From Paeniglutamicibacter psychrophenolicus (GTDB lineage: Bacteria > Actinomycetota > Actinomycetes > Actinomycetales > Micrococcaceae), in the NCBI RefSeq assembly GCF_017876575.1, contig NZ_JAGIOE010000001.1, positions 3,700,443 through 3,764,442 of the forward strand: 64,000 bases of DNA, written 5' to 3'. Of the stretch, positions 23,230 through 53,479 are shown piece after piece. A program made the position numbers and the translations under genes. How positions within the stretch are numbered: position 1 is the first letter of the stretch; each line of letters starts with the position of its first letter. A model generated the notes under the pieces. It did not search any database. It saw only the letters and a program-made list of their open reading frames with translations, and had not been told where the DNA came from.

Positions 23230-24369
23230 ATGACTGAAACAACAGAGATCAAGAAGGGCCTGGCCGGGGTGGTCGTCGACTACACCGCCATTTCCAAGGT
23301 CAACCCGGACACCAATTCGCTGCTCTACCGCGGCTACCCGGTCCAGGACCTGGCCGCCAGCAAGAGCTTCGAAGAGGTGGCGCTGCTCCTGTGGACCGGC
23401 GAGCTGCCGACGCAGATCGAGCTGACCGACTTCATCGCCGCCGAGCGTGCCGGGCGCGCCCTGGCCTCCAACGTGAAGGCGGCGATCGACCTGCTGCCGC
23501 TGGATTGCCACCCGATGGACGTGGGCCGCACCGCGGTCTCGGTCCTGGGCGCCAACCACGCGCTGGCGGAAGACTCCTCCCCCGAGGCGGAGTTCATCAA
23601 GGCCAAGGAGCTCTTTGCCGCGTTCCCCGCGGTGGTCGCCTACGACCAGCGCCGCCGCCGCGGCCTGAGCGTCGTGGAACCGCGGGAAGACCTGGACTAC
23701 TCGCAGAACTTCCTCTGGATGACCTTCGGCGAGGAGGCCGCCCCCGAGGTGGTCGACGCGTTCCGGGTCTCGATGGTGCTCTACGCGGAGCACTCCTTCA
23801 ACGCCTCCACGTTCACCGCCCGCGTGGTCACCTCCACGCTCTCGGACCTGCATTCGGCCGTCACCGCCGCCATCGGTGCACTGAAGGGCCCCCTGCACGG
23901 AGGCGCCAACGAGGCGGTCATGCACACCTTCCAGGAGATCGGGATCGACAAGAACGAATCCCGCGAGGACGCCGCGGCGCGTGCCAAGGCCTGGATGGAG
24001 CAGGCCCTGGCTGCGAAGAAGAAGGTCATGGGCTTCGGGCACCGCGTCTACAAGCACGGCGACTCCCGGGTCCCGACCATGAAGGCCGCCTTGGACAAGA
24101 TGGTCGCGTACTACGACCGCGGCGAACTGCTGGGGCTGTATGACGGGCTGGAGACGGCCATGGACGAGGCCAAGGCCATCAAGCCGAACCTCGACTACCC
24201 GGCGGGCCCGACCTACCACCTGATGGGCTTCGACACCGACATGTTCACGCCCATCTTCATTGCCTCGCGCATCGTGGGCTGGACCGCGCACATTGCCGAA
24301 CAGCGCGCCTCAAACGCGTTGATCCGCCCGCTCTCGGCCTACAACGGCCCGGAACAGCGCGCCCTGTAG
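23230..24369 (+). CDS. prpC: 2-methylcitrate synthase
   Basis: 379 residues, the length of the short citrate synthase family. Typical motifs are SLLYRGYPVQDLA near the start, the GPLHGGANEAVM loop with a catalytic histidine, and MGFGHRVYKHGDSR with the second one. It condenses propionyl-CoA with oxaloacetate. PrpC-type enzymes may also accept acetyl-CoA. The chosen ATG at 23230 is preceded by ACAGGAGCG. It is the last gene of the operon, and a strong hairpin terminator follows. Confidence 0.94.
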   Translation: MTETTEIKKGLAGVVVDYTAISKVNPDTNSLLYRGYPVQDLAASKSFEEVALLLWTGELPTQIELTDFIAAERAGRALASNVKAAIDLLPLDCHPMDVGRTAVSVLGANHALAEDSSPEAEFIKAKELFAAFPAVVAYDQRRRRGLSVVEPREDLDYSQNFLWMTFGEEAAPEVVDAFRVSMVLYAEHSFNASTFTARVVTSTLSDLHSAVTAAIGALKGPLHGGANEAVMHTFQEIGIDKNESREDAAARAKAWMEQALAAKKKVMGFGHRVYKHGDSRVPTMKAALDKMVAYYDRGELLGLYDGLETAMDEAKAIKPNLDYPAGPTYHLMGFDTDMFTPIFIASRIVGWTAHIAEQRASNALIRPLSAYNGPEQRAL

Positions 24370-24390
24370 GCGCACGCCGGAGCACCGCAA

Positions 24391-24431
24391 CGGGGGTGCC
24401 GGGACCACGTGGTCCCGGCACCCCCGTTTTT
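24391..24431 (+). terminator. Strong terminator of the prp operon
   Basis: A perfect 18-bp palindrome (24391-24426) whose arms begin CGGGGGTGCCGGGACCAC has no unpaired loop base, and TTTT follows on the plus strand. It also separates the prp operon from the convergent protease operon, and may stop transcription from either side. Confidence 0.9.
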
Positions 24432-24457
24432 GCGTGTTGCGCCGGTGACAGGCAATC

Positions 24458-25483
24458 TCACCAGTACATGATCGCGCTCGTGCCGGTTCCGCCGGCCCAG
24501 TACAGGCGCAGGCGCACCACGTAGCGTCGCCCGGCCAGCAGCCGCAGGTGCAACCTGGCGTTCAGGCCGGTCCCGCCGTCGTCGTCCCCGCCCAGGTAGC
24601 GCAGCGTCCCGGCGTCGTCCTCGAAGAGCACCATCACCACGTCCGAGGTGCCGAAGGTGGAGATCGTGTAGGGGCGTGATTCGTCCGGTTCCAGGGCGAA
24701 ATCGGCTTGCTCCCCCGGCCCCAGGGTGAACGGGCGGGAGGTGAACGGCTCGAGCACCTTCGGCCCCGGTGCCTGCCCGGGATAGAACTTCTTGGCCCAC
24801 TCGATGTCCTGTGCCGACAGGCCGCCGGCGGGCATGAGCCCGGCGGCATACTGTGCCGGTTCGATGATCAACCCTGCGGGGAACCAGTACTCCATCACCG
24901 AATCCGGGTCCCAGGCCGAGCCGTCGACCTCGGTGGTGGAGAACTTGTGCAAGACGTTGGAATCGGTCTGTGCCCGGGACCAGTTGTTCGGGGACCCGGT
25001 GAAATAGGCGTAGACCTTCTCCACGTCCCACTGGATGCCGGAGAACGGGTTCTGGTGCTCATGCGGCAGCCCCAGGGTGTGCCCGATCTCGTGCAGCGCG
25101 GTGGTGTGCCCGTAGTCGTCGGTCAGGTCCCAGCCGAAGTTCATGGTGGCCTGGGTGTTGGGGATGCCCAGCACGTCCCTGCCCACGTAGGACCAGGAAC
25201 CGTCGGCCGCATCGAAGGAGATGCGCACCTCCGCGGCCGCACGGTTGGTCGTCTCGGTGAACTTCAGGCCCAGCGGCAGCCCCTTCCATTCGGTGAAGGC
25301 GTCGCGCACGGCCTGGCGCTGGGGCTCGGGACCCTGGATGAGGAAGTAGTGCAGCTCGGTGCCGTTGACCCAGACGTTGGCCAGGACCCGCAGCAGGCGG
25401 TCGCGTTCGAACGGCATTCCGGGGGGCAGCGGGCGGGGCGCCGGGTTCCGCGGGACGCAGAGGCGTTGGTTCTCGTACTTCAT
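24458..25483 (-). CDS. Astacin-like metzincin protease with PPC-like C-terminal domain
   Basis: 341 residues. The zinc site HEIGHTLGLPH occupies residues 131-141 with Glu at 142, which is the extended metzincin motif HExxHxxGxxHE. The Met-turn SVMEY at 195-199, ending in Tyr, matches the astacin (M12A) or matrixin group. From about 243 to the end lies a beta-sandwich resembling bacterial pre-peptidase C-terminal domains (PYTISTFGTSDVVMVLFEDD). No signal peptide or prodomain cysteine switch is visible: the protein starts MKYENQRLCVPRN. That is unusual for this class and suggests cytoplasmic action or a non-classical exit. The ATG at 25483 follows AAAGGAACC. The gene lies 115 bases after the coiled-coil protein gene and is probably co-transcribed with it. 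Substrate unknown. Confidence 0.85.
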   Translation of the reverse strand: MKYENQRLCVPRNPAPRPLPPGMPFERDRLLRVLANVWVNGTELHYFLIQGPEPQRQAVRDAFTEWKGLPLGLKFTETTNRAAAEVRISFDAADGSWSYVGRDVLGIPNTQATMNFGWDLTDDYGHTTALHEIGHTLGLPHEHQNPFSGIQWDVEKVYAYFTGSPNNWSRAQTDSNVLHKFSTTEVDGSAWDPDSVMEYWFPAGLIIEPAQYAAGLMPAGGLSAQDIEWAKKFYPGQAPGPKVLEPFTSRPFTLGPGEQADFALEPDESRPYTISTFGTSDVVMVLFEDDAGTLRYLGGDDDGGTGLNARLHLRLLAGRRYVVRLRLYWAGGTGTSAIMYW

Positions 25484-25541
25484 GGTGGTTCCTTTCGAAC
25501 CGGTGGTGCTGAGGTGGTGTGCAACAAGGATGGCGGGGAAC

Positions 25542-25590
25542 GGCGGCCGGTGCGGCGCCGGGCTGTGGGCCCTGCGCCGCACCGGCCGCC
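25542..25590 (-). promoter_or_regulatory. Large stem-loop between coiled-coil gene and metzincin gene
   Basis: A perfect 17-bp GC-rich stem (25542-25558 with 25574-25590) encloses a 15-base loop. No U-tract follows leftward, so it may be an mRNA stabiliser or partial attenuator that sets the ratio of the two proteins rather than a full terminator. It starts just nine bases after the upstream stop codon. Confidence 0.55.
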
Positions 25591-25598
25591 GACGGGCG

Positions 25599-26483
25599 TC
25601 AGCTGACGTAGACCAGCGGAACTCCCAGGTAGTTGGCGTTGCCGGTGGAGAAGTCCAGCTGGGCGGTTGAACCGCCGCCGCGCGCGTACACGTAGAGCCT
25701 CGCGCTCACCAACAGGTAGGCCTGGTCGGCGCCCAAGAGGTCGGCATAGTACATCGTGCGCCAGCCGTCGAAACGGTCGTTGACGTTGATGTTGTCGTTG
25801 CCGACCGAAAGCACGTTGGCACTGCCCGCGGGCTTGTAGTTGTACTGGTATCCCCTCGCCGTCAGCGAGATATTGACCTTGGCTTCCTTCGAGTCGAACC
25901 ATCCGTCGTCGGCGCGCACGATGTAGAAGCCGTTGAACGGCACGTACACCTGATGCGAATAGTTGCGGTTCTCCGGAGCCCTGAAGGTGAACCACCAGTC
26001 CATGTACACCGAGAACGATGCCGCGCCGGTGCCGAAGATGCCCGAACCACCGCCGTTGGCGTAGCACGAGGCGTTGATGTTTCCCGGGTTGTAGCCCTGC
26101 CAGTACACCGATCCGTCCGAGCCGTGCAGGGTCCCGTAGTACGGGCTGAGCCAGCCCACGGCCGCGGCGGCCGGGCCATTGCCCAGAACCAGCTGAAGCG
26201 CGGTGGACTCGGCCGGGTCGGCCTCCGCCAGCCGGGCGGCCACCGCTTCGGAGTCCTTCGCTGCGGCGGCTGTTGCCTTGGGTTCCGCTTCCTCGGCCCT
26301 GGCCAGGTAGGCAGCCAGTTCCTTGGGCAACGACTTCTTCAGGTCGGCCAGCCTGCCCTGCCCGCGGGCCTCGATGTCCGCCAGCTCCTCGGCCTGCGCC
26401 TTTTGGAGGGCAACGACCTGCTCGCGCCGGGCGGCCAGCAGCCGCTCGAAGACGACGTCGGTGCCCGCTTGGATGTTATCCAT
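25599..26483 (-). CDS. Unrecognised protein: coiled-coil N-terminus, beta-rich C-terminal domain
   Basis: 294 residues, not recognised. Residues 1-100 are helical and charged, with heptad-like spacing and strong coiled-coil character (QVVALQKAQAEELADIEARG, then AAYLARAEEAEPKA). From about 105 the protein changes to aromatic, Gly- and Asn-rich beta sequence (WLSPYYGTLHGSDGSVYWQG, MDWWFTFRAP, FNGFYIVRADDGWF, WRTMYYADLLGADQAYLL), probably a jelly-roll or other sandwich. There is no signal peptide. Its upstream region carries three 11-bp-spaced heptamers like those before the caspase gene, so the SARP next door probably controls it. It may be a structural or targeting partner, or a substrate, of the proteases; that is speculation. 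Confidence 0.75.
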   Translation of the reverse strand: MDNIQAGTDVVFERLLAARREQVVALQKAQAEELADIEARGQGRLADLKKSLPKELAAYLARAEEAEPKATAAAAKDSEAVAARLAEADPAESTALQLVLGNGPAAAAVGWLSPYYGTLHGSDGSVYWQGYNPGNINASCYANGGGSGIFGTGAASFSVYMDWWFTFRAPENRNYSHQVYVPFNGFYIVRADDGWFDSKEAKVNISLTARGYQYNYKPAGSANVLSVGNDNINVNDRFDGWRTMYYADLLGADQAYLLVSARLYVYARGGGSTAQLDFSTGNANYLGVPLVYVS

Positions 26484-26585
26484 GGTTCTCTCCCATTTTT
26501 GTACCCCGCCGCGCCCGACTCCCACGGTGTCGGAACCGCCCTCTTGCCCCTGGCGGTCCCCACCCGCCGGCCGCGGTGGTGCTCC

Positions 26586-26631
26586 AATGTAGGAGGGAGG
26601 GCGTTATCGGTTGGTTATCGCCGCATTACCT
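26586..26631 (-). promoter_or_regulatory. Candidate SARP-dependent promoter of the coiled-coil/metzincin operon
   Basis: Reading leftward, three heptamers AGGTAAT (26631-26625), CGATAAC (26620-26614) and CGATAAC (26609-26603) begin exactly 11 bases apart. After an 11-base spacer comes TACATT (26591-26586), a -10-like hexamer. Direct heptamer repeats at 11-bp period next to the -10 are the hallmark of SARP targets. The same geometry is found before the caspase gene. The start codon is about 100 bases downstream. Confidence 0.7.
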
Positions 26632-26673
26632 CGCCATGATTTTCCACTGCCCGCGTGTCGGCCCCGGTTTGGC

Positions 26674-27426
26674 TCAGATGTTGAATGGTTCCGGAGCGCC
26701 GCGAAACCCGGCCAGGGAGACATTCGTGGCACCCCGCACGCGGGCCTCGAGCCGGTCCAGCGCCGGGGAACCCGACATGCCAAGTTCATGGCGGGCCGTA
26801 CGGCGGAATGCGGCAATGGCCCCCATCGCCGAGATGGACTGGCCCAGGGCGAGCTGGGCGGTGACCATGATTTCCAGCGCCGCCTCGTCCAGCATGTCAA
26901 GGCGCAGCACGCGGGCCGCCGCTTCCACGGCGCCGCGGCAATCGTCATGCCGCAGGCAGCGGGCGGCCACCTGGTGCCAGTACGCCGTGCGGGCCTGCAA
27001 CAACCCCATCTGCTCTTCGAGGACCCAGTCCTCGTACCAGCCCATCAGCAGTGGCTCGTTGCGTGGGCGGGATGTCCGCCCCTCCCCGTCGAAGCCTTCG
27101 AGCGCTGCCCGCTCCCGGTGCAGGTCCACCCGTGCCGTCGGGGAGATGCCCACCGAATGCCTGTCCACGGTGAGCATCCCGGGCAGGGAGTGGGTGACAT
27201 GGTGGATGCTCACGCGCAGGTTGTCCTGCGCCGAGCGGTCGCAGGATTCGGGCCACAGCAATCCTGCCACCCGGTCGCGCTTGCTCGGTCCGTGGATCGC
27301 CAGCACGGCCAGCAGCCGTTGCTCGCGCAGGCACACATGGAGCCTGATGCCGTTGCCCCACAGCTCCCACAGCGGCATCAGGTGCAACGAATACCCGGTT
27401 TGTGGCATCTTTGACGTATCGCCCAT
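26674..27426 (-). CDS. SARP/BTAD-type transcriptional activator
   Basis: 250 residues. Residues about 10-100 form an OmpR-like winged helix of the SARP kind (NGIRLHVCLREQRLLAVLAI, RVAGLLWPESCDRSAQDNLR, VSIHHVTHSLPG). The rest is a bacterial transcriptional activator domain of TPR-like helices (AALEIMVTAQLALGQSISAM, AFRRTARHELGM). There is no NB-ARC or other sensor domain, so it is a short SARP. Family members bind direct repeats overlapping -35 and recruit RNA polymerase. The ATG at 27426 is preferred because GGGGGAG lies nine bases upstream; an ATG at 27483 would add 19 residues. It follows the gluzincin gene and probably activates its own operon and the coiled-coil/metzincin operon. Confidence 0.85.
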   Translation of the reverse strand: MGDTSKMPQTGYSLHLMPLWELWGNGIRLHVCLREQRLLAVLAIHGPSKRDRVAGLLWPESCDRSAQDNLRVSIHHVTHSLPGMLTVDRHSVGISPTARVDLHRERAALEGFDGEGRTSRPRNEPLLMGWYEDWVLEEQMGLLQARTAYWHQVAARCLRHDDCRGAVEAAARVLRLDMLDEAALEIMVTAQLALGQSISAMGAIAAFRRTARHELGMSGSPALDRLEARVRGATNVSLAGFRGAPEPFNI

Positions 27427-27563
27427 GGCGGACAGCTCCCCCTTGGTCCCTGCACCCTGGACCATTTCTTTCTTCGCTCCCATTCGAATCGTCCGCCAAC
27501 AGCGGGTGCAGGTCAATAGCGATGCGGCGAGATTCTCCAATGGTTCGACATGGGGTCCGCGCC

Positions 27564-29186
27564 TCATCGTCCGTGCTGTTGCGTTTCCGCCATCGGGTGG
27601 AACAACGAGGCGCCGATCCGCTGTGCGGCAATGCGGGCGTCGGCCGCACCGTCGAGCAGTTCCTGCTGCCGTTGGACGTCGAGCACGGGCTTCAGCGCGG
27701 AAAAGGCCAGCCGCCCGCCTTCGTCGAACCGCAGAAGCCCCCCGCCACGCAACACCACTGCCGAGCGGCTGCGCAATCCCCGTTTCCTGGCCGCGGCGGC
27801 ATCCAGCCGCAGTTCCTGCACGAAGGACACCTCGATCTCGGACACCGCGAATCCGTCGGGGCTGATGCGCTGGCTGGGCCGCACCCGGTCCAGCACGATC
27901 CGTCCCGCCGGATCCAATTTGGCCGCATCCATGAGCCGCGGGTTGTCCCAGATAAAACGGAGCACCTCGTCGGAATCCGAGACCAGTGCCGAGAGCCGCA
28001 CCGGGTAGTTCAACTCCCTCAGGTCGAAGAGTCCATCCAGGGCGCCATCGGCTCCGGCGACGATTCCGACCTCGGCAAAGCACGCGCGCAGGGTGCCGCG
28101 GTAGTTGTGCTCATCGCCCGGAACAACGACGGCGTCGGCGGCCAGGATCCCGCGCAGCAGGTCCTCCCAGAGAACATCCACCGGCGCCATGTATGCCAAC
28201 CCGCGAAGGAGCATGTTCAGCACCCGCTCCCCGATCCGGGAACCGGCCGCGGCAACCTGGTAGACACTGGCCCGGCGGCCCGGCCTCCCCAGTTCCGCCC
28301 GCCACAGCCGCAGCACGGTTCCCAGCACCGCATGCACGGCACCGGCGGCCCGGCGATGCGGCTCCATGTCCGAGCGCCAGTCCGGCGGTGGGCTGCCCGA
28401 CATCGGGCTGCGTCCCGCCCCGCCGCGGCTGAACAGGTTGTCGGCAAAGCGGAAAAGCCCCGAGGCCAGCAGTGTCGAATCGATCGATTCCAGGGTTGCC
28501 CCGGAGGCCTTCAGCTGACCGGCAATGATTCCTTCGACCACCGGTACCGCCGTGAAGACCCCCAGCATCGCCAGCAGGTCGGCCAACGCCTCATGCAGCG
28601 CAAGCTGGTCGGCACCGGCCAGGGCATCGGCCCAACGCGGACGGTAGCCGTCGATGACGGCATGGGCAACCTCGTGGGCGACCAGGTCCCGATAGAGCAC
28701 CAATGGCAGCCTCTCCGCATGCCGGGAATCCTCGATCAACCCGAACCTGATGGAGCAGTCGCTACGGGTGTAGCCGGAGTTGCGGTAGTCGATGGGGTCG
28801 TTGGCGTAGAGCCGGAGCCTGCCCGCCGAGGCCCATCCCATGCGCCGGCCCAGCGCGCGTTCAACCGATTCCAGGGTGTCGGCGGCGACCCCGTATGCCT
28901 GCTGGGCCAGGAAACGCCGGTCGCGCGGCAGGTCCTCCGGGTTCGGGATCCCAAGATCACGGGCACCCCAGTCGCCGTCGCCCAGCACCTGGTTCTCCCG
29001 GCGCCCGCTCGAATCGAGCACCACCACCTCGAGGCGGGCACCCAGCGGGCCGGAGACCAGCCGCTCGCTGGGAACCCGCATGACTTGGGTCATCAACCGC
29101 CCGTCGGACGTGAACGAGTGTGGTCCCTGGGCCAGCACCTCCAGCGGACTCAGGTCCCCGGCACGGTGCGGGGGAAGGACTGCCAC
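27564..29186 (-). CDS. Gluzincin-like metallopeptidase (M4-like)
   Basis: 540 residues from the GTG at 29186. The zinc motif HEVAH lies at 171-175 and a second motif ALHEALADLLA, with the presumed third ligand Glu at 199, follows 24 residues later. This matches thermolysin-type gluzincins (HExxH plus NExxSD-like). The flanks (DPIDYRNSGYTRSDCSIRFG before, a long helical region after) are not standard M4, and no signal peptide or FTP/PepSY propeptide is visible. It may therefore be a divergent intracellular branch. It starts two bases after the caspase stop, so translation is coupled. An ATG at 29222 inside the caspase gene is an alternative start. Substrate unknown. Confidence 0.75.
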   Translation of the reverse strand: MAVLPPHRAGDLSPLEVLAQGPHSFTSDGRLMTQVMRVPSERLVSGPLGARLEVVVLDSSGRRENQVLGDGDWGARDLGIPNPEDLPRDRRFLAQQAYGVAADTLESVERALGRRMGWASAGRLRLYANDPIDYRNSGYTRSDCSIRFGLIEDSRHAERLPLVLYRDLVAHEVAHAVIDGYRPRWADALAGADQLALHEALADLLAMLGVFTAVPVVEGIIAGQLKASGATLESIDSTLLASGLFRFADNLFSRGGAGRSPMSGSPPPDWRSDMEPHRRAAGAVHAVLGTVLRLWRAELGRPGRRASVYQVAAAGSRIGERVLNMLLRGLAYMAPVDVLWEDLLRGILAADAVVVPGDEHNYRGTLRACFAEVGIVAGADGALDGLFDLRELNYPVRLSALVSDSDEVLRFIWDNPRLMDAAKLDPAGRIVLDRVRPSQRISPDGFAVSEIEVSFVQELRLDAAAARKRGLRSRSAVVLRGGGLLRFDEGGRLAFSALKPVLDVQRQQELLDGAADARIAAQRIGASLFHPMAETQQHGR

Positions 29187-29188
29187 CT

Positions 29189-31264
29189 TTACCCCGCGGC
29201 ACCCGCGAAGGCGCTGCCCCACGGGGTGGACTTGGCCGCGGCCGGGCCCTCGAGCTGGGCGCGCTGGTCGAAGCGGCCCTTGGCCAGCGACTTGGTGACG
29301 GCGGCCAAGATCGACCGGCGGCTGCGGGTGGGATCGGTGCGCAACTCCTCAAGCAGGTAATACGTGAACGCACCGTTGTAGCGCCCGTCGAACACCGCAT
29401 CCGCGGAGGTCTGGTCGGACCGGCAGCCGGCCAGCAGCACCGGGCGGGCGCCCCGTCCGGAGCGGGACACCAGGTCGCGGAAGGCGCGCGGGTCCGCGGT
29501 GGCCGTCAGGTCAAGGCCGATCGGCGTGGGCGGGGGCAGGAAGCGCGGCCGTCGCCCGGGCAACAGATCCAGCGCCTTCAGTCCGTCGCCGCTGTGGCAG
29601 GTGTCCAGCACGACCTCCACCAGCATGCCGCTCCCGGCCCGCGAAATGAGGGCGTGCAGCTCGTCGTCGGAGATCAGCGTGGCCGGGTCCCACTGGTCCC
29701 CGGCCTGGTTCAGGTCGTAGGTGGCAAAGGCCTCGTCGGCCTGGTCGGATTCGTCGCCGGAGGAATCCGGGATCTGGGTCCCGTGGCTGGAGAAGGTGAA
29801 GACCAGGTGCTTGAGCCCGTCGGACGCGGCCCGGTCCATGGCCTCGCCGAGGCGTCCCATGACCGCTTCCTTGGTCGCCGCGGCGTCGGTGAGCACCTCG
29901 ATCTGGTCATCGGCGAAGCCGAACCCCTCTCCCAGCACGGCGGCGAAGTCGTTGGCGTCGTTCACGCAGCCGTTGAGCCAGGACCCGCGCGGCAGGTTCA
30001 GGAAGTCGTTGATGCCCACGCACAAGGCGTATTTGTCCCCGGCGCCGACCCGCAGGGGCGTGCTGGCCACGTGCTGCACCGCCGGCGCGGGTGCGGGAGC
30101 AGGTTGGGGTTCGGCGGCCGGCTCCGGCTCCGGCTCCGTGGATGGGCGCACCGATCTATAGGAAATGACGTCTTCGCGGCCCAGCACCCGGCACAGCACG
30201 CTGGTCATGGTGTCCGGGTCCTCGTCGAAGGACCGGTGGGAGGTTGCGGAGCTGCGGGCGGATTTCGGGCCATCGGCGGTTGTCGACCAGATCGCTTCCG
30301 CCCGCGCCGAGGCGAAAAGGTCTGTCAGCTGGGAGTCCGCGGCCACGGATTCGGCCAGGCCGAGGATCGGGGTGTCGGGTTGGACCTCCAGGGAGGCGCG
30401 GATCAGGCACAGCAGCGAGCGCTGGTAGACCCCGATGACGTTGTCCGCTTCCTCCAGGTCCCGCTTCATGGAGAACATCGCCAGGTGCTCCACACCATTG
30501 GCGCTGCCCAGCAACGGGGCAAGCCGCGCCTTGAAGTCAGCGACGGTGATGGCGGGAGCCAGGAGGTTCAGGGTATCGAAACCTGCCTCCGGTTCAAGGT
30601 CGGAGTAGGCCGAGAGGAAATGTGACAGGAAGATCGATCCGGCCGAATGCCCGGCCGCGTGCAACCGGAGGGCCTGCGGGTTGCCGCCGATGTAGTCGGC
30701 GAGCGCGCGGGCCACATACAGGGCCCCGCCGTCCTGGGACACCGCCTGGGCGGCACTGAGCTTCATCTGGCCCCAGATCTTGGGTCCCAGCGGGCGGGCG
30801 AGCAGTTCGAAGGCCTTGTTCCACGCGTCCTGGAGGAATCCGCGCTCGGTCGGGACCCCGCGGAGCACATCGCGCACCGGGGCGCCGAGCAGCGAACCGA
30901 TGGCATCGAAGAGCCCGGTTTCCCAGATGAAGAAGATCGGATAGACCCCGTTGGCCTTCCACCAGGGGATTTGCCGAGCGGCACCGGTGATGCCGGCGGT
31001 CTCGTTCACCAGTCCCCCGTGGGCCCAGAACAGCAGCGGGACATCCCGTCCGCCGTTGGCCGCCACGAACTCGGGCAGGTGCTTGGAGAAGATCGCCTGG
31101 ATGTCTTCGGGGCTGGTGCGCAATTGCCCGCCGCTGGAGAAGCGGCCGTCCGAGAGGTTGACCAGATGCGGCTTGAGCGCCGACATGTCGATTCCCGCCG
31201 GGAGGTCCCGGGTGGGGTCGCCCATGTCAAACGGGTCGTGGCTGGGGGAAATCAGCAGTACCAT
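29189..31264 (-). CDS. Caspase-family protease fused to an alpha/beta-hydrolase-like domain
   Basis: 691 residues in two parts. Residues 1-370 resemble an alpha/beta-hydrolase: LLFWAHGGLVNE at 77-88 as oxyanion region and AGHSAGS at 204-210, with Ser207 in a GxSxG nucleophile elbow. After a Pro/Glu/Ala linker (about 375-397), residues 411-691 form a peptidase C14 (metacaspase-type) domain: KYALCVGIND, the catalytic FSSHGTQ with His494 and VVLDTCHSGD with Cys556. The acidic DSSGDESDQADEA segment after the His is typical of metacaspases with Asp-rich substrate or calcium sites. No signal peptide is visible. Such proteases often act in regulated cell death or defence. It is the first gene of the operon and has SARP-type repeats upstream. 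Confidence 0.88.
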   Translation of the reverse strand: MVLLISPSHDPFDMGDPTRDLPAGIDMSALKPHLVNLSDGRFSSGGQLRTSPEDIQAIFSKHLPEFVAANGGRDVPLLFWAHGGLVNETAGITGAARQIPWWKANGVYPIFFIWETGLFDAIGSLLGAPVRDVLRGVPTERGFLQDAWNKAFELLARPLGPKIWGQMKLSAAQAVSQDGGALYVARALADYIGGNPQALRLHAAGHSAGSIFLSHFLSAYSDLEPEAGFDTLNLLAPAITVADFKARLAPLLGSANGVEHLAMFSMKRDLEEADNVIGVYQRSLLCLIRASLEVQPDTPILGLAESVAADSQLTDLFASARAEAIWSTTADGPKSARSSATSHRSFDEDPDTMTSVLCRVLGREDVISYRSVRPSTEPEPEPAAEPQPAPAPAPAVQHVASTPLRVGAGDKYALCVGINDFLNLPRGSWLNGCVNDANDFAAVLGEGFGFADDQIEVLTDAAATKEAVMGRLGEAMDRAASDGLKHLVFTFSSHGTQIPDSSGDESDQADEAFATYDLNQAGDQWDPATLISDDELHALISRAGSGMLVEVVLDTCHSGDGLKALDLLPGRRPRFLPPPTPIGLDLTATADPRAFRDLVSRSGRGARPVLLAGCRSDQTSADAVFDGRYNGAFTYYLLEELRTDPTRSRRSILAAVTKSLAKGRFDQRAQLEGPAAAKSTPWGSAFAGAAG

Positions 31265-31307
31265 GTTCTGCTCCTGTGTCGAGCCGCGCGGCGGTTGCGG
31301 CAACAGG

Positions 31308-31342
31308 AGTATGGTCCCGGGGGCATTACCGGCGCGTTACCG
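31308..31342 (-). promoter_or_regulatory. Candidate SARP-dependent promoter of the caspase operon
   Basis: Reading leftward, CGGTAAC (31342-31336) and CGGTAAT (31331-31325) begin 11 bases apart. An 11-base spacer leads to CATACT (31313-31308), four of six matches to TATAAT. The geometry equals that before the coiled-coil gene. The caspase ATG is 43 bases further on, with CAGGAGCAG as ribosome site. Confidence 0.7.
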
Positions 31343-31402
31343 GTCGGTGTGCCGCAGGCCGGCGGCCACCGGGATTGCACCGATTGGCCGCCGGCCGGCT
31401 GC

Positions 31403-32767
31403 TCAGCGCAGTTGAAGCGATGCCGCGACTGCCCTGGCCCGCTGGTATTCGGTCGAGTCCAGGTAGGCGTTGCGTTCGGCCGCGTCCTTGAATCCGAGGT
31501 ACCCGGTCCAGGCATCGGACTGGAGCATCTTGCCGCCCAGGTGGAAGGCGGTGGGCAGGTCGCAGAGCTTGCCTTCGGCCGGGCTGCCGGCCGGGACCAA
31601 TCCCACCGAGGAACGGTTGATCCCGAAGTAGTCCTTCTCGGTGAGCAGGCCCAGGGACAGCGTGCCCTCCCGGACCACCAGGGAGGTGGGTGCCAATCCG
31701 TGCAGCGTGTAGGTTGCCGCAGGGTCGTTGCAGGTCTCGTCCGCGCCATCCCCGGCACGGTCGTCGGGGAACAGGGCCAGGTTGAAGACCGCCTTGCCGT
31801 GCGAGTCGAAGAACATCAGCTGGTAGGTGGCTGCATCCTTCGGGTCCGTGGCGGCAGGCTCAAGCGACTTGCCGCCGGTGCCGTACATGGATTCGTGCAT
31901 GGTCCATGCCGGGTGGGTGACCTCCAGCACCGAGTTGGAATAGGTCACGGGTTCGGCACCGGAGTCGGATTCCATCCATGAGGGCACGTTGGGGCCGAAG
32001 AGGGTCTTGGCGACCTGCTCGTCGATGCCCAGATCCTTGATGGCCAGGTCCATGCGCTGCTCGGGGGTTTGGTCCGGTTCGTAGGTGTAGCCACGCAGCA
32101 GCGGCCATGACAGGTATTCGGGGTGCACTTCGACTCCGTCGGCGCCGATCTCCGACGGGGAACTGATCCACTGCTTGGCTTCCGGGTTCCATTTGGCCAC
32201 CAGCATGCCTCCGGAGGTGTCGTCGATGTTCTGTTCGACGCGGAACCGGTCCGTCGGGGTGAAGGCGGCGAAGCCTTCCTGGCAGCCGATGAGCGAGAAG
32301 GCCTTGGCGTCGAAGCCGGGGTCGGAGAGCTTTCCCTTGGCGTCTTCAACCATGATCCCGGGCAAGGACAGCGCGCTGCAGGCCGCGTCGTCGGCGAAGT
32401 GGGCGCCGTCCCAGGCCGGGAAGAGCCCGTTGGGCCAGGCGGCGGGTGCCGGCGTCCCCGTGGGGTCCGCGGCGCCGGATTCCGAGGGTTCGGGAATCGT
32501 GGTGGATTGCGTGGGCGGGGTCGCCGGCAGCGGATCGGGTGCCGGGGCAGTCCAGGGCGCCCACACCACGACCGCCGCCACGGCCGTGGCCGTGGCCATC
32601 GCGCCCACGGCCACCGGCCACCAGTTCCTCCGTTCCCTCGGGGGCTCGGCAACCGGGCGTTGGATGAACACCGGGGCGGGGTCCGAGAGGTCCAGGGGAA
32701 GCGGCGCACCGGAGTCCTGCGCCGCGCGGGGATCGGCGTCGCGAAGAAGCCTTTCAATGTTGTCCAT
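31403..32767 (-). CDS. Membrane anti-sigma-like protein, copy 1
   Basis: 454 residues. A cytoplasmic N-terminus of about 50 residues (MDNIERLLRD) is followed by one membrane helix at about 52-70 (WWPVAVGAMATATAVAAVVV). A Pro/Thr/Ser linker leads to a large extracytoplasmic domain. Four cysteines (in DAACSALS, LIGCQEG, DETCNDP, GKLCDLP) are placed as in the paralogue at 33518-34882, so two disulfides are likely. Its start overlaps the sigma gene stop by 14 bases, the classic sigma/anti-sigma coupling. No HCC zinc motif is present. It is therefore called anti-sigma-like from topology and context, and the extracytoplasmic fold is not recognised. It is exactly as long as its paralogue. Confidence 0.75.
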   Translation of the reverse strand: MDNIERLLRDADPRAAQDSGAPLPLDLSDPAPVFIQRPVAEPPRERRNWWPVAVGAMATATAVAAVVVWAPWTAPAPDPLPATPPTQSTTIPEPSESGAADPTGTPAPAAWPNGLFPAWDGAHFADDAACSALSLPGIMVEDAKGKLSDPGFDAKAFSLIGCQEGFAAFTPTDRFRVEQNIDDTSGGMLVAKWNPEAKQWISSPSEIGADGVEVHPEYLSWPLLRGYTYEPDQTPEQRMDLAIKDLGIDEQVAKTLFGPNVPSWMESDSGAEPVTYSNSVLEVTHPAWTMHESMYGTGGKSLEPAATDPKDAATYQLMFFDSHGKAVFNLALFPDDRAGDGADETCNDPAATYTLHGLAPTSLVVREGTLSLGLLTEKDYFGINRSSVGLVPAGSPAEGKLCDLPTAFHLGGKMLQSDAWTGYLGFKDAAERNAYLDSTEYQRARAVAASLQLR

Positions 32768-33272
32768 GATCGGTTCCACCCTTCAACATCTGGTTCGGGG
32801 TCTTGCGGGAGAAGGCCTTGCGGGCCCTGAAGAGCCGGGATTTCGCCGAGTCGGCCGAGCAGCCCAGGATGGCGGCGATTTCGGCCAGGGACAGCGAATC
32901 CCAGTAGGCGAGCATGAGGATCTCGCGTTCCGCCTCGCGCAGGGTCGCCAGCACCTCACGGACCTCGTGGCTGGTTCCATCCGGCTCGGCGGGCCGGCGC
33001 GAGAGCTCGGCGCTGCCGAGCTTTTCCACCAGGCTGCGCCGGCGCTGTTGGGCGCGCAGCTCGTTGGCCACCAGGTTCCGTGCGGTGACCAGCAGCCACG
33101 CCAACGCATCGTCGCCGGGTTCCTTCTGCTGCTGCCAGGCGATCCGGAACACGTCGTTGGTGATTGATTGGGCCAACGGCACATCCCGCAGCCGCCGGAA
33201 AACGTAGCCATAGACGCGTCCGGAGTGCTGGCGGTGCAGCTCTTCCACATGCGAGGCGGTCTTCGCTCCCAT
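32754..33272 (-). CDS. ECF RNA polymerase sigma factor, copy 1
   Basis: 172 residues from the ATG at 33272 (MGAKTASHVEELHRQHS). Region 2 includes VYGYVFRRLRDVPLAQSITNDVFRIAWQQ and LAWLLVTARNLVANELR. Region 4 includes LREAEREILMLAYWDSLSLAEIAAILGCSADSAKSRLFRARKAF. There are no extra domains. It likely directs RNA polymerase to a small envelope-stress regulon and is held by the membrane protein encoded next. It shares length, ends (MLKGG....GQH) and most of its sequence with the sigma factor at 34869-35387. Confidence 0.92.
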   Translation of the reverse strand: MGAKTASHVEELHRQHSGRVYGYVFRRLRDVPLAQSITNDVFRIAWQQQKEPGDDALAWLLVTARNLVANELRAQQRRRSLVEKLGSAELSRRPAEPDGTSHEVREVLATLREAEREILMLAYWDSLSLAEIAAILGCSADSAKSRLFRARKAFSRKTPNQMLKGGTDHGQH

Positions 33273-33517
33273 GGGTTTCCCCCTCCTGCACCTTGCGGCG
33301 CACCCGTCCTTCATGCGGGTACGTCCTGTTGCATAGGTAATGTCCGGGACCTTGGTTTAGGTGACGCGGACTGCGGGAAAACCTTCACCGGGCGGGGTAC
33401 CGGCAAAGAAACATGCCGCGGACGCCTGGCCGTGGGAAATGCCGACATGACTGAGCGTACCGTTGCCGCTCTGTCGAAGCCGGCCAGCTGACCTGCCGGG
33501 TGCATGGTGTGGCGGAC
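33273..33517. promoter_or_regulatory. Upstream region of sigma factor copy 1
   Basis: 245 bases without a gene. Leftward, CCGGACATTACCTA (33337-33350) is nearly identical to CCGGACATTACATA before the other sigma gene, at a similar distance from the start. No other repeat is visible. This is the likely promoter region of the second pair. Confidence 0.5.
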
Positions 33518-34882
33518 CTACCCCAGGTCTTGGATCACCAAGGACTTGGCCACCGCCTTGGCCTGCGTGTATTCAACCGAGGCCAGGTACGCGTTGATTT
33601 CGCCTTGGTTCTTGAAACCCATGGGGTCGTTCCATTGGGTGAGCATCAAGGTGCGATCCCCGATGTCGACGCCGAAGTGCACGTCGCAGGTCTTCCCGGT
33701 GGACGGGAGGTCCGCGGGATAGAGCCCAATCACCGAACGGCGGTTTCCTTCGGCGTCCGTGACCGTGCTCAGGGCCAGCTTCAGCGGACCGGCGGCGGTG
33801 AGGACCCCGCTGGGCGATTCGCCGTCGAGCGTGTAGGTGGATCCCGGTTCGGCACAGTCGGTGGGTTCGTGCACGGCGCCCTTTCTCAGGCTCGTGAGGC
33901 TGAATACTTTTTTGCCCCTGAGGTCGTAGAAGAGCAGATCGTACCTGTCCACGTCATTGGGGCCGATCATCGGATCGTCGATGGGGTTGCCGATCTCGTC
34001 CATCTTCCACTCGCGTTCTTCCCACGCGGGATGGTCCACCGTCAACAATTCGTTGCCGAAGGCGTGGCGTTCCTCCGTTGCATTGGCGCCCATCCAGGAC
34101 GGAACATCGGGCCCCAGGAGCCTGCCCAGGCTGGTGTCGTCAAGATCCAGGACCTTGAGCTTTCGCAGCTGTTCGGGCTTGAGGATGGGGTCGGACGGAT
34201 TGTCCAGCGACCGCAGCTGGGGATTCGTGAAGAAGGGCATGCTGCCAACGCCGTTGATGCCCGTGTCGTCATCCGCCTTGATGCTCCAAGATCCGTCCTG
34301 CCAACGGGCAAGCCAAATGCCGGAACCGTCTCCGGTGGGGTTGCCGGCCTCGGCCAGGTCCGACCGCAGGATCGTCGCCAGGGAATCGACGCAGCCGATC
34401 ACGGGGTACGCGTTGGCGTTGTCAGGCAGCTTGGTCCGGATTCCGTTGGCGTCCACGAGGTCCAGGGTCCGCAGGTCAAGGGCGTTGCAGGCGGGCGAAT
34501 CCTCGAAGTAGACGTCCTGGTTGGCCGGGACCAGGAAGTTGGGCAGCCCGTAATCGATGCGCGGCAGCGCCGATCCATCCGCGGATGAGCTGGGCGAGGG
34601 ACCGGTGGTGGGATTTCCCGTGATCGGAAGCGTTGGCGATGCCGGGCCGGTTCCCGTCGGGGCCTGCCAGGGAGCCCAGACGACGAGGCCGACAGCAGCT
34701 GCGGCGATGGCCGTTCCTGCCGCAAGGATCCGCCATTTGCCCCAGGAATTTCCAGGTTTGACCTGTACTGGCCGCTGGCTGAAGACCGGGACGGGATCTT
34801 GGAGTTGCAGCGGACCGGGATCGCCGATGTTGTCGCGCTCGGCCGGATCGATGCCGGAAATGAGCTTCTCAATGTTGTCCAT
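33518..34882 (-). CDS. Membrane anti-sigma-like protein, copy 2
   Basis: 454 residues, paralogue of the product of 31403-32767. It starts MDNIEKLISG, has one membrane helix at about 52-70 (WRILAAGTAIAAAAVGLVVW), a Gly/Thr/Pro/Ser linker and a large extracytoplasmic domain. Its four cysteines (SPACNAL, VIGCVDS, PTDCAEP, GKTCDVH) sit in the same positions as in copy 1. Other shared words are DVPSWM/NVPSWM, VDHPAW/VTHPAW, TYTLDG/TYTLHG and YLASVEY/YLDSTEY near the C-terminus. The gene overlaps its sigma partner by 14 bases. The role as sensor and sigma inhibitor is inferred from context. Confidence 0.75.
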   Translation of the reverse strand: MDNIEKLISGIDPAERDNIGDPGPLQLQDPVPVFSQRPVQVKPGNSWGKWRILAAGTAIAAAAVGLVVWAPWQAPTGTGPASPTLPITGNPTTGPSPSSSADGSALPRIDYGLPNFLVPANQDVYFEDSPACNALDLRTLDLVDANGIRTKLPDNANAYPVIGCVDSLATILRSDLAEAGNPTGDGSGIWLARWQDGSWSIKADDDTGINGVGSMPFFTNPQLRSLDNPSDPILKPEQLRKLKVLDLDDTSLGRLLGPDVPSWMGANATEERHAFGNELLTVDHPAWEEREWKMDEIGNPIDDPMIGPNDVDRYDLLFYDLRGKKVFSLTSLRKGAVHEPTDCAEPGSTYTLDGESPSGVLTAAGPLKLALSTVTDAEGNRRSVIGLYPADLPSTGKTCDVHFGVDIGDRTLMLTQWNDPMGFKNQGEINAYLASVEYTQAKAVAKSLVIQDLG

Positions 34883-35387
34883 TGGAGCCGCCGCCCTTCA
34901 ACATGCTCGTTGGTGCCTTGCGTTCAAAGGCCTTGCGGGCCCGGAACAGCCGCGATTTAGCCGATTCATGCGAGCATTCCAGCATCGCGGCGATCTCGGC
35001 GATCGAGAGCGCATCCCAGTAGGCGAGGATGAGCACCTCGCGGTCCTTGGCACGCAGTGCGTCCAGGACCTCGTGCACCTGCTCGTCCAGTCCGGAGTCG
35101 TGGCCGCCGCGCTCGGCGAGCTGGGCGGCCGCGGCCTTGAACACGAGGTTCTTTTCCCGGCCCATGGAGCGCAGCTCGTTGCCGACAAGGTTCCGGGCCG
35201 TCACCAACAGCCACCCAAGCGCATCCTCTCCCGGCGAGATGCCGCGTTGCCAGGCCAGCCGGAAGGCGTCGTTGCTGATTTGCCGGGCGACCTCGACGTC
35301 CAGGATCCGGCGATAGACGTACCGGTAAACGTTCTTGGAATGCAGGCGGTGCAATTCCTCCACGGCCGCTGATGCCTGTGTCTCCAC
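34869..35387 (-). CDS. ECF RNA polymerase sigma factor, copy 2
   Basis: 172 residues from a GTG at 35387, preceded eight bases upstream by GGGGGAGG. Region 2 (VYRYVYRRILDVEVARQISNDAFRLAWQR, LGWLLVTARNLVGNELRS) and region 4 (LRAKDREVLILAYWDALSIAEIAAMLECSHESAKSRLFRARKAF) are intact. It is the close paralogue of the sigma factor at 32754-33272 and has the same C-terminal MLKGG....GQH tail, in which the anti-sigma start codon is embedded. It follows the Nudix gene by 58 bases, and transcription may begin upstream of that gene or inside its 3' end. Confidence 0.92.
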   Translation of the reverse strand: METQASAAVEELHRLHSKNVYRYVYRRILDVEVARQISNDAFRLAWQRGISPGEDALGWLLVTARNLVGNELRSMGREKNLVFKAAAAQLAERGGHDSGLDEQVHEVLDALRAKDREVLILAYWDALSIAEIAAMLECSHESAKSRLFRARKAFERKAPTSMLKGGGSNGQH

Positions 35388-35445
35388 CGACGCCCCCTCC
35401 CCCTGTAGCCGCCCGTGGGCCCCGCAGATGCGGGCCCCTTGTTGG

Positions 35446-47707: not shown

Positions 47708-47825
47708 GTCCGGCGGTGACCTACTCTCCCACACCCTCCCGAGTGCAGTACCATCGGCGCGGTGGGTCTTAGCTTCCGGGTTCGGTATGGGACCGGGCGT
47801 TTCCCCCACGCTATGACCGCCGTAA
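47708..47825 (-). rRNA. rrf: 5S ribosomal RNA
   Basis: About 118 bases. The leftward sequence begins GTTACGGCGGTCATAGCGTG and ends GTCACCGCCGGAC. It contains the conserved CCGAACCCGGAAGCTAAG loop. Confidence 0.95.
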
Positions 47826-48000
47826 CTCTAGCCACGCACGCCCCGGCGGTGCCGGGGGTGGTGAAAATCGGGTTACGACCACAATAGTGGTTGTTGTTGT
47901 TGTGGTTCCGCGAAAAACAATGGGTTGTTGTTTCGGGACCGCATAGTGGACGCAGCGTATCTTGCCACCCACCCCGCAAGGTGCTGTGGTGTTTGTGGTT

Positions 48001-53229
<5,229 letters not shown>

Positions 53230-53479
53230 AAAAAATACAGACACAACCAACACGACCCTGGAAAAAGGGTTGCGGGTTGCACCAAGTAAAAAAATCCCGG
53301 CAAATTGCCCCAGGCATCCACACGGGGGTGCGGACCCTGAAACCATTCACCAATAAAATAAATAAATTGGTATCAACAAATTTGGCACACTATTGAGTTC
53401 TCAAACAACAGACAGCTCCCGGTTCGGCATCCGTGCGATCAAATGATCAGTCGGTGTTTCTTCCGGGGTGATGTGTAAT
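53230..53479 (-). other. rRNA leader region
   Basis: Transcribed leader between promoter and 16S. It contains the TGTTTGAGAACTCAATAGTG word (leftward, about 53384-53403), typical of actinobacterial rRNA leaders and likely part of the antitermination box region. No gene is visible. Confidence 0.6.

Follow-up and report, generated by a model that had tools for sequence, protein, structure and literature searches.

Gene content and boundaries of the cassette

We analysed a window of 64,000 bp (the whole stretch of DNA under study; contig NZ_JAGIOE010000001.1) from the soil bacterium Paeniglutamicibacter psychrophenolicus. On the minus strand, it harbors a cassette of five adjacent genes, transcribed in the order hydrolase-caspase, gluzincin, SARP activator, coiled-coil/beta protein (CC), and metzincin, with two SARP-type promoters (Table 1). 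A previous sequence-only reading had described five leftward genes between 24458 and 31264 as a candidate proteolytic system; all five open reading frames (ORFs) were present, the motifs His494/Cys556, HEVAH plus HEALAD, and HEIGHTLGLPH plus SVMEY were found exactly as given there, and the two-base gap between the caspase stop and the gluzincin start was seen as well. The absence of signal peptides was borne out by hydropathy only, none of the five proteins revealing a signal-like N-terminus (Kyte-Doolittle means over 11 residues peaked at 0.7–1.2 within the N-terminal 45 positions).

Table 1. Features of the cassette, with positions in the window
Feature	Position	Strand	Details
Hydrolase-caspase gene	ATG 31264 to 29189 (29189..31264)	minus	691 amino acids; Pfam Peptidase_C14 4e-20
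Gluzincin gene, thermolysin-like	GTG 29186 to 27564 (27564..29186)	minus	540 amino acids; HEVAH, HEALAD
Small SARP activator gene	about 27426–26674	minus	about 250 amino acids; BTAD 21.4 bits
CC (coiled-coil/beta) protein gene	ATG 26483 to 25599	minus	294 amino acids; orphan family
Metzincin gene, AbsR1/SCO6992-type	ATG 25483 to 24458	minus	341 amino acids; Astacin 8e-8; HEIGHTLGLPH, SVMEY
SARP-type promoter, caspase operon	31308..31341	minus	GGTAACG-N4-GGTAATG-N10-CATACT
SARP-type promoter, CC-metzincin operon	26586..26630	minus	three 11-bp-spaced repeats and TACATT, a -10-like hexamer
Presence/absence cassette extent	24370..31402		empty sites in G001, G002, G003, G009, G014

Among 15 genomes of Paeniglutamicibacter, the genus of the window, the caspase was detected in nine (compared genomes and loci are designated by G and L numbers, respectively). 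The five genomes with empty sites kept the flanking gene order without the cassette, so that prpC adjoins the gene that follows the cassette elsewhere, with a gap of roughly 75–100 bp in four genomes and 0.64 kb in G002, where the neighbor of prpC is a paralog of the post-cassette gene. The cassette-free genome G005 was fragmented and not counted among the empty sites. In the window, the cassette lies between prpC, which ends at 24369, and the next leftward gene (31403–32779), with the 2-methylcitrate operon as its chromosomal neighbor. The block is thus a cassette, cleanly absent from these five congeners. In G012, caspase, gluzincin, and SARP were located at a different site near a gene for JetA, and in G011 the usual site could be matched on one side only. 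In G+C content, the cassette (0.681) differs little from the window (0.659), so that composition gave no sign of recent arrival. We favor a mobile, or at least gained-and-lost, self-regulated cassette as the best explanation of the block.

A probable shared regulon

SARP-type repeats before both operons, as noted in the earlier reading, were present and conserved at the same promoters in relatives. In the window, the pattern GRTAAY with 11-bp spacing resulted in two matches (one with one mismatch) against none in 100 shuffles. Because this pattern was written from the window sites themselves, the comparative tests carry the weight. In the whole 4.9-Mb genome, the exact pattern occurred at two places only, both of them cassette promoters; one further place was found with one mismatch, and the reversed control gave one. 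A stricter pattern, applied to 119 genomes with up to one mismatch, revealed 14 places compared to a single one for its reversed control, and 12 of the 14 precede a caspase (8), hydrolase (2), or CC gene (2), the remaining two lying in G035 and G051. At 21 island loci, 26 half-site pairs were spaced by 11 bp, four by 22 bp, and at most three by any other distance from 7 to 25 bp; at 18 other SARP loci, 12 pairs were found at 11 bp, five at 22 bp, and at most one elsewhere; and eight metzincin-only or control loci showed just two pairs, one with 11-bp and one with 20-bp spacing. Counted over 31 loci (636,787 bp), 38 of 47 loose boxes lay 20–260 bp before system genes, a zone comprising 0.9% of positions, and 32 of 48 system-gene starts had a box, though these counts are descriptive, the loci being related and the promoter list having been drawn up when boxes were already known at some of them. 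The loose box inside the 16S rRNA gene, at 53122, is a chance match.

Unlinked modules keep the box as well. In Glutamicibacter, it precedes a lone hydrolase, the CC, and an M6-like protease, with the SARP about 15–17 kb from the CC, and it was also detected before the CC in Paenarthrobacter and before the metzincin of G012, far from the caspase of that genome. Boxed M6-like proteases (HENGH; L145:13565–15379, L146:5661–7547, and L161:7936–9693), which share about 70% identity across Glutamicibacter and Arthrobacter, probably belong to the same regulon in these two genera.

The BTAD domain of the SARP scored 21.4 bits against a Pfam cut-off of 22.1, while two homologs reached 38.4 and 56.9 bits; its DNA-binding domain, expected to be OmpR-like in SARP regulators, gave no Pfam match. 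Orthologs were located at the same place in eight of the nine cassette-bearing congeners (not in G007) and in G031. SARPs are described to bind direct repeats with 11-bp or 22-bp spacing, of which the last lies some 8 bp from the -10 element (PMC10936776). Both cassette promoters conform to this arrangement: the heptamers as drawn in Table 1 end 10 bp from the -10 element, and 8 bp are reached when the repeat unit is shifted by two bases. The protein resembles AfsR-type SARPs in its putative BTAD domain and in direct repeats just upstream of -10, but its putative targets are proteases and a hydrolase and not the antibiotic biosynthesis genes described for that type (PMC10936776). We are highly confident that the regulon is real, with the cassette SARP itself as the presumed binding protein.

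SARPs are classical activators of secondary metabolism, and the cassette might be read in this sense, as a developmental or metabolic control in which SARP-induced proteases and a hydrolase would remodel regulators or metabolites; also, SCO6992, a Streptomyces relative of the metzincin, raises antibiotic production on a multicopy plasmid (PMC9705864). We consider this quite unlikely, as the cassette holds no biosynthetic genes, its presence is patchy (caspase in nine of the 15 congeners), and no other exact box occurs in the genome, so that no wider regulon is seen.

A general rule of a small SARP plus a protease was also considered and dropped, since it was only a tendency among the 18 further SARP loci. 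In five of them (L143, L145, L146, L148, and L152), an HExxH gene follows 11-bp repeats within 0.5 kb, although two of these loci, L143 and L148, encode membrane proteins that are S2P-like by eye. Unrelated boxed genes encode a sigma-54-type activator (L137) and a pyridoxal phosphate enzyme (L141). One locus type of Micrococcales (L143:5211–8720, L148:5464–9292, and L151:6682–11987) combines an S2P-like (by eye) HELGH membrane protein, a secreted-looking protein with CxxC repeats, and a SARP, with 11-bp boxes upstream of the HELGH gene in L143 and L148 and none in L151. A small SARP is furthermore located near a boxed M10-type metzincin with a peptidoglycan-binding domain (L152:5760–9480) and near an M12A astacin without a box (L154:6420–8775).

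Two separable modules

The first module comprises the hydrolase-caspase and the gluzincin, usually together with the SARP. A gluzincin was identified in 11 of the 119 related genomes, and a caspase gene was adjacent in all 11, in G020 as a separate gene without hydrolase. A search of 394 genomes of the class added two close gluzincins (G306 and G441), located beside a caspase, hydrolase-caspase, and SARP, and a caspase adjoins the close gluzincin in 13 of 13 genomes. Caspase-gluzincin pairs with SARP and boxes were also found in L203 and L204, which belong to another family, and in a planctomycete a caspase lies two genes away from the gluzincin.

The second module consists of CC and metzincin, the latter adjoining the CC in all nine relatives that have one. 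Scanning 84,980 species for the CC revealed 16 loci, 12 of them in Micrococcaceae-type records; the named members of Paeniglutamicibacter among them were P. psychrophenolicus, P. terrestris, and P. antarcticus. A metzincin was adjacent at ten of these 12 loci, and seven of the 12 have a SARP. The other four loci came from Dyadobacter and from metagenome-assembled genomes (MAGs) of Chloroflexi, Planctomycetota, and an unassigned lineage. No metzincin was found in the DNA around these four, two of which lie at contig ends; in Dyadobacter, the gene next to the CC encodes a trypsin-like protease (sub-threshold matches to Trypsin_2 and NAL1_N). Gene calls in the fetched loci were made with a crude G+C-based script, and some ORFs are shadows.

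The co-occurrence of all five genes, as expected by the sequence-only reading, stood in part: it recurs beyond one strain (caspase-gluzincin in 13/13, CC-metzincin in 10/12), but as two separable modules and not as one unit. Glutamicibacter carries CC-metzincin and a lone hydrolase without a caspase, while G006, G007, G012, and G031 have caspase-gluzincin without the CC. As each pair occurs alone, two unrelated modules might have come to lie side by side by chance, only the pairs being functional. This is highly improbable, since the same rare promoter box precedes both modules even where they are unlinked, and metzincin, hydrolase-caspase, and gluzincin recur together in a cyanobacterium.

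Hydrolase-caspase and gluzincin

The hydrolase half, of alpha/beta-hydrolase type (about residues 25–375), revealed HGG at positions 82–84, GHSAG with Ser207, and His343. A Pro/Ala linker joins it to a caspase half of metacaspase type (about 408–685), in which a C14 domain with the His494 and Cys556 dyad was identified, as in metacaspases and prokaryotic caspases; the nearest solved structures are metacaspases (hmmsearch 1.7e-37). His and Cys were kept in all 13 domain-bearing proteins of alignment A3, whose three further members are stand-alone hydrolases, and HGG, Ser207, and His343 in nine of nine aligned relatives.

The hydrolase half stands alone in G036, G063, and G064. Second-type caspases are fused to it in L083, L087, L089, L203, and L204, and a papain-type C1 peptidase in Arthrobacter sp. 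Leaf141 (PF00112 above cut-off), in a Micrococcaceae MAG (PF00112 below cut-off), and on several rhizobial and burkholderial plasmids. The neighbors of the papain-hydrolase gene in Leaf141 encode an M6-like protease, the CC, a metzincin, and a SARP; boxes precede the CC and the M6-like protease. A partial hydrolase match in Mesorhizobium onobrychidis adjoins a caspase gene, together with phospholipase D-like and trypsin-like genes. Several proteases under one regulator, with a 2-methylcitrate operon as neighbor, would also fit ordinary protein turnover that is induced by stress or starvation and involves neither suicide nor defense. Patchy cassette presence, unrelated proteases swapped around one hydrolase, and defense genes near some relatives make this very improbable.

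In the gluzincin, HEVAH occupies positions 171–175 and HEALAD provides Glu199 and Asp203, followed by His277. These residues (H171, E172, H175, E199, D203, and H277) did not vary among the 11 close relatives aligned, nor among the 11 sequences of a wider alignment spanning Alphaproteobacteria, Planctomycetota, Cyanobacteriota, Bacteroidota, and Deinococcota. Loss of catalytic residues across homologs, named beforehand as a finding that would speak against the proposed system, was not seen in the aligned relatives. Similarity of the window protein to thermolysin was marginal (E 0.17) without a match to Pfam M4, and a homolog matched Peptidase_M4 at E 0.018, below the cut-off. Caspases are the partners of this unnamed gluzincin family in four actinobacterial genera and one cyanobacterium.

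CC protein and metzincin

The CC displays an N-terminal coiled coil (about residues 1–90) and a beta-rich domain (about 105–294). It had been called unrecognized before and is indeed an orphan, with no match in Pfam, NCBIfam, PADLOC, or PHROGs. An AlphaFold2 model of low confidence (pLDDT 46) has the same coiled-coil-then-beta layout. A fold assignment was given up, as this model was too poor for a fold search and no usable match came from sequence searches against solved structures.

The metzincin belongs to the AbsR1/SCO6992 family (NF050131, 412 bits, E 1.6e-123), in which it is a relative and not an equivalog, its score lying below the cut-off of 650. Its C-terminal part is beta-rich and PPC-like by eye. 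HExxH was kept in 18 of 18 loci examined, a count that leaves out three weak partial matches (G009, G014, and G056). For SCO6992, zinc binding, no caseinolytic activity, and a claimed beta-glucuronidase activity are described (PMC9705864). Because this relative binds zinc but left casein undigested and showed glucuronidase activity, the metzincin of the cassette need not be a protease.

Distant relatives and defense neighbors

A search of 72,556 plasmid records resulted in 16 matches to the hydrolase, 26 to the gluzincin (20 listed), 15 to the metzincin, and none to the CC. Plasmid pA of the cyanobacterium Kovacikia minuta was the only record in both the hydrolase and the metzincin lists, and it is in the gluzincin list as well; the chance expectation for hydrolase and metzincin in one record is 0.003, by simple multiplication that ignores record size. 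Within 7.4 kb, pA encodes a metzincin with a PPC domain, an Amidase_2-hydrolase-caspase fusion, and a gluzincin. The Kovacikia metzincin gene (L221:10913–11978) is split into two overlapping reading frames, perhaps through a sequencing error or through decay.

Amidase_2 and PPC are families typical of action outside the cell, M6-like, M10, and M12A proteases occur near related small SARPs, and SARPs activate antibiotic biosynthesis (PMC10936776). Thus, the cassette might encode a leaderless lytic arsenal that is kept in the cytosol until lysis or an unrecognized route releases it, and that then kills competitors or digests prey. We regard this as unlikely: hydropathy revealed no signal-like N-termini, neither a secretion nor an immunity gene was recognized in the cassette, and caspases and protease pairs with metallo-beta-lactamase (MBL) nucleases are known from intracellular systems (PMC7159879, PMC12799240).

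Eight of the 26 plasmid records with distant gluzincins were viewed (L213–L220; 24–31% identity among the matches listed). In six of these eight loci, the gene after the gluzincin has MBL-fold or LmuA-type matches (PADLOC LmuA 2e-20 at best, Avs1a, and some Pfam matches below cut-off); in L214 and L220, this gene was outside the MBL scan. A DUF2235 gene (PF09994, Tle1-like; confirmed for A. vitis) follows in two plasmid loci, and two loci have the gluzincin within a protein that carries an S8 peptidase annotation. CBASS cyclase, SIR2, helicases, WYL, MoxR, ThiF, or caspase genes lie nearby, though not all at each locus, and several of these sites look like defense islands. Protease-activated MBL pro-nucleases were described in 2025, with mention of other protease families (PMC12799240); by analogy, the plasmid gluzincin-MBL pair is possibly a metalloprotease version of such pairs.

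Caspase-gluzincin-SARP is located by Wadjet-type genes in two genera: in G031 (L084), it is directly adjacent and divergent to a JetA gene (2.5e-219), with JetC (0) close by as well; in G012 (L080), it is divergent to a JetA gene (1.2e-217) with two called ORFs between; and in G064 a lone hydrolase was found near JetA (1.9e-186). JetA was present in 62 of 119 genomes, but such nearness is notable because there are usually only one or two JetA genes in about 4 Mb. The arrangement of G012 and G031 may be one old shared arrangement. A phage or virus origin of the cassette was rejected, as no CC or gluzincin relative could be confirmed in viral contigs; among 50,697 phage records there was one weak gluzincin match (26%), and PHROGs gave no convincing match.

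Comparison with known systems

Pairs of alpha/beta-hydrolase and caspase are described in VMAP (MoxR-vWA) ternary/NTPase conflict systems (Kaur et al. 2020, PMC7159879), among which peptidases also occur. The cassette shares this pairing with them, but no MoxR, vWA, or VMAP was detected in the nine proteins scanned (five of the cassette and four flanking), and it is under SARP transcriptional control with gluzincin, CC, and metzincin added. Loci of caspase and MBL nuclease are described as canu (PMC12799240). Like these, the cassette is a compact locus of a caspase and a partner enzyme, and plasmid relatives of its gluzincin lie upstream of MBL-fold-like genes; unlike in canu, its partner enzyme is a second protease, and the same nine proteins gave no MBL match. 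These differences make the names canu and VMAP less fitting, but do not lower the reading that the cassette works like them.

SCO6992/AbsR1 of Streptomyces coelicolor shares the metzincin family and an adjacent regulator gene. However, this regulator, SCO6993, is a LuxR-type (LAL) repressor (PMC9628970), so that its candidacy as a SARP was dropped, and the clone is described with these two ORFs only, beta-glucuronidase being the reported activity (PMC9705864).

Bacterial gasdermin-protease loci harbor a non-enzymatic protein beside cytosolic proteases. The CC differs from these in its layout, a coiled coil followed by a beta domain, and in having no PADLOC match.

The sequence-only reading knew of no described system with this composition. 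That holds for the SARP-controlled combination, on which there is no report among the literature matches listed, but not for its parts, as hydrolase-caspase pairs (PMC7159879), canu (PMC12799240), and SCO6992 (PMC9705864) are described; hydrolase-caspase pairing, caspase-based defense loci, and SARPs are thus known already.

Proposed function

With moderate confidence, and judging from sequence, we favor an inducible intracellular arsenal of proteases and a hydrolase for regulated death or defense. The SARP would bind the 11-bp direct repeats over the -35 region and recruit RNA polymerase to two promoters, the first driving hydrolase-caspase and gluzincin and, through transcriptional read-through, also the SARP gene, the second CC and metzincin. 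From the gene order, we infer positive feedback of the SARP.

Metacaspases are activated by Ca2+ or self-processing, and the caspase of the cassette would probably be activated in the same way. Caspase and gluzincin would then probably act together as initiator and executor, one after the other or on shared protein targets; a cascade, which the earlier reading had proposed for the proteases in general, is possible but doubtful for these two. The hydrolase might attack an ester, perhaps a lipid, and the CC would most likely be partner, scaffold, or substrate of the neighboring protease. The products would stay inside the cell, and a cell under stress or invasion would most likely die or stop growing. 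Gene content, catalytic residues, promoter boxes, cassette boundaries, and the recurrent pairing are seen in the sequences, whereas binding by this SARP, intracellular action, death or defense as the outcome, and the order of events are what we infer.

Several observations weigh against this proposal. With respect to regulation, the caspase of G007 is boxed, but no close SARP was found there (31% identity and E 1.6e-9 for the best match); in G020 and Kovacikia, caspase and gluzincin are accompanied by neither a SARP nor boxes, and L166 and L169 lack both. The modules are incomplete in places, as six of 17 relatives matched by the caspase-protein query have no gluzincin, 12 of 21 genomes with a metzincin match have no CC, and the distant gluzincins of G092 and G229, the two examined among weak relatives in four more genomes of the class, have no adjacent caspase. 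The compared loci are related, so the counts are not independent. A Foldseek search with the gluzincin model (pLDDT 69, pTM 0.75) gave a best E of 0.026, to a protein taken as unrelated, and SCO6992, the assayed relative of the metzincin, is reported without caseinolytic activity (PMC9705864). Finally, neither a sensor NTPase nor an MBL nuclease was detected in the cassette, the four flanking window proteins scanned include no defense gene, and in G012 three proteins beside JetA had no PADLOC match, so that a complete Wadjet is not supported there.

A bolder and rather speculative version would see in the cassette an inducible system of immunity or suicide that forms a class of its own, in which a small SARP arms a two-promoter cassette, the hydrolase-caspase activates a new cytosolic thermolysin-like family, the CC is executioner or substrate, and the same gluzincin family activates MBL pro-nucleases on plasmids. 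If this were true, gluzincins would join trypsin and caspase as another class of proteases for gated nucleases. The cassette links the SARP family, known from antibiotic clusters, with caspase-type conflict proteins. It offers a compact, testable unit of one regulator, two promoters, and four effectors, with precise empty sites as a natural comparison and with named culturable hosts, and in it an orphan coiled-coil/beta protein keeps company with leaderless-looking proteases.

Other features of the window

Next to the cassette, positions 31403–35400 comprise two gene pairs in tandem, each with a sigma-factor-like member (by eye) and one for a large membrane-anchored protein, which is CU044_5270-like by a weak match; the number of pairs differs among congeners. 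A complete rRNA operon (16S, 23S, and 5S) is located at 47708–53231 on the minus strand.

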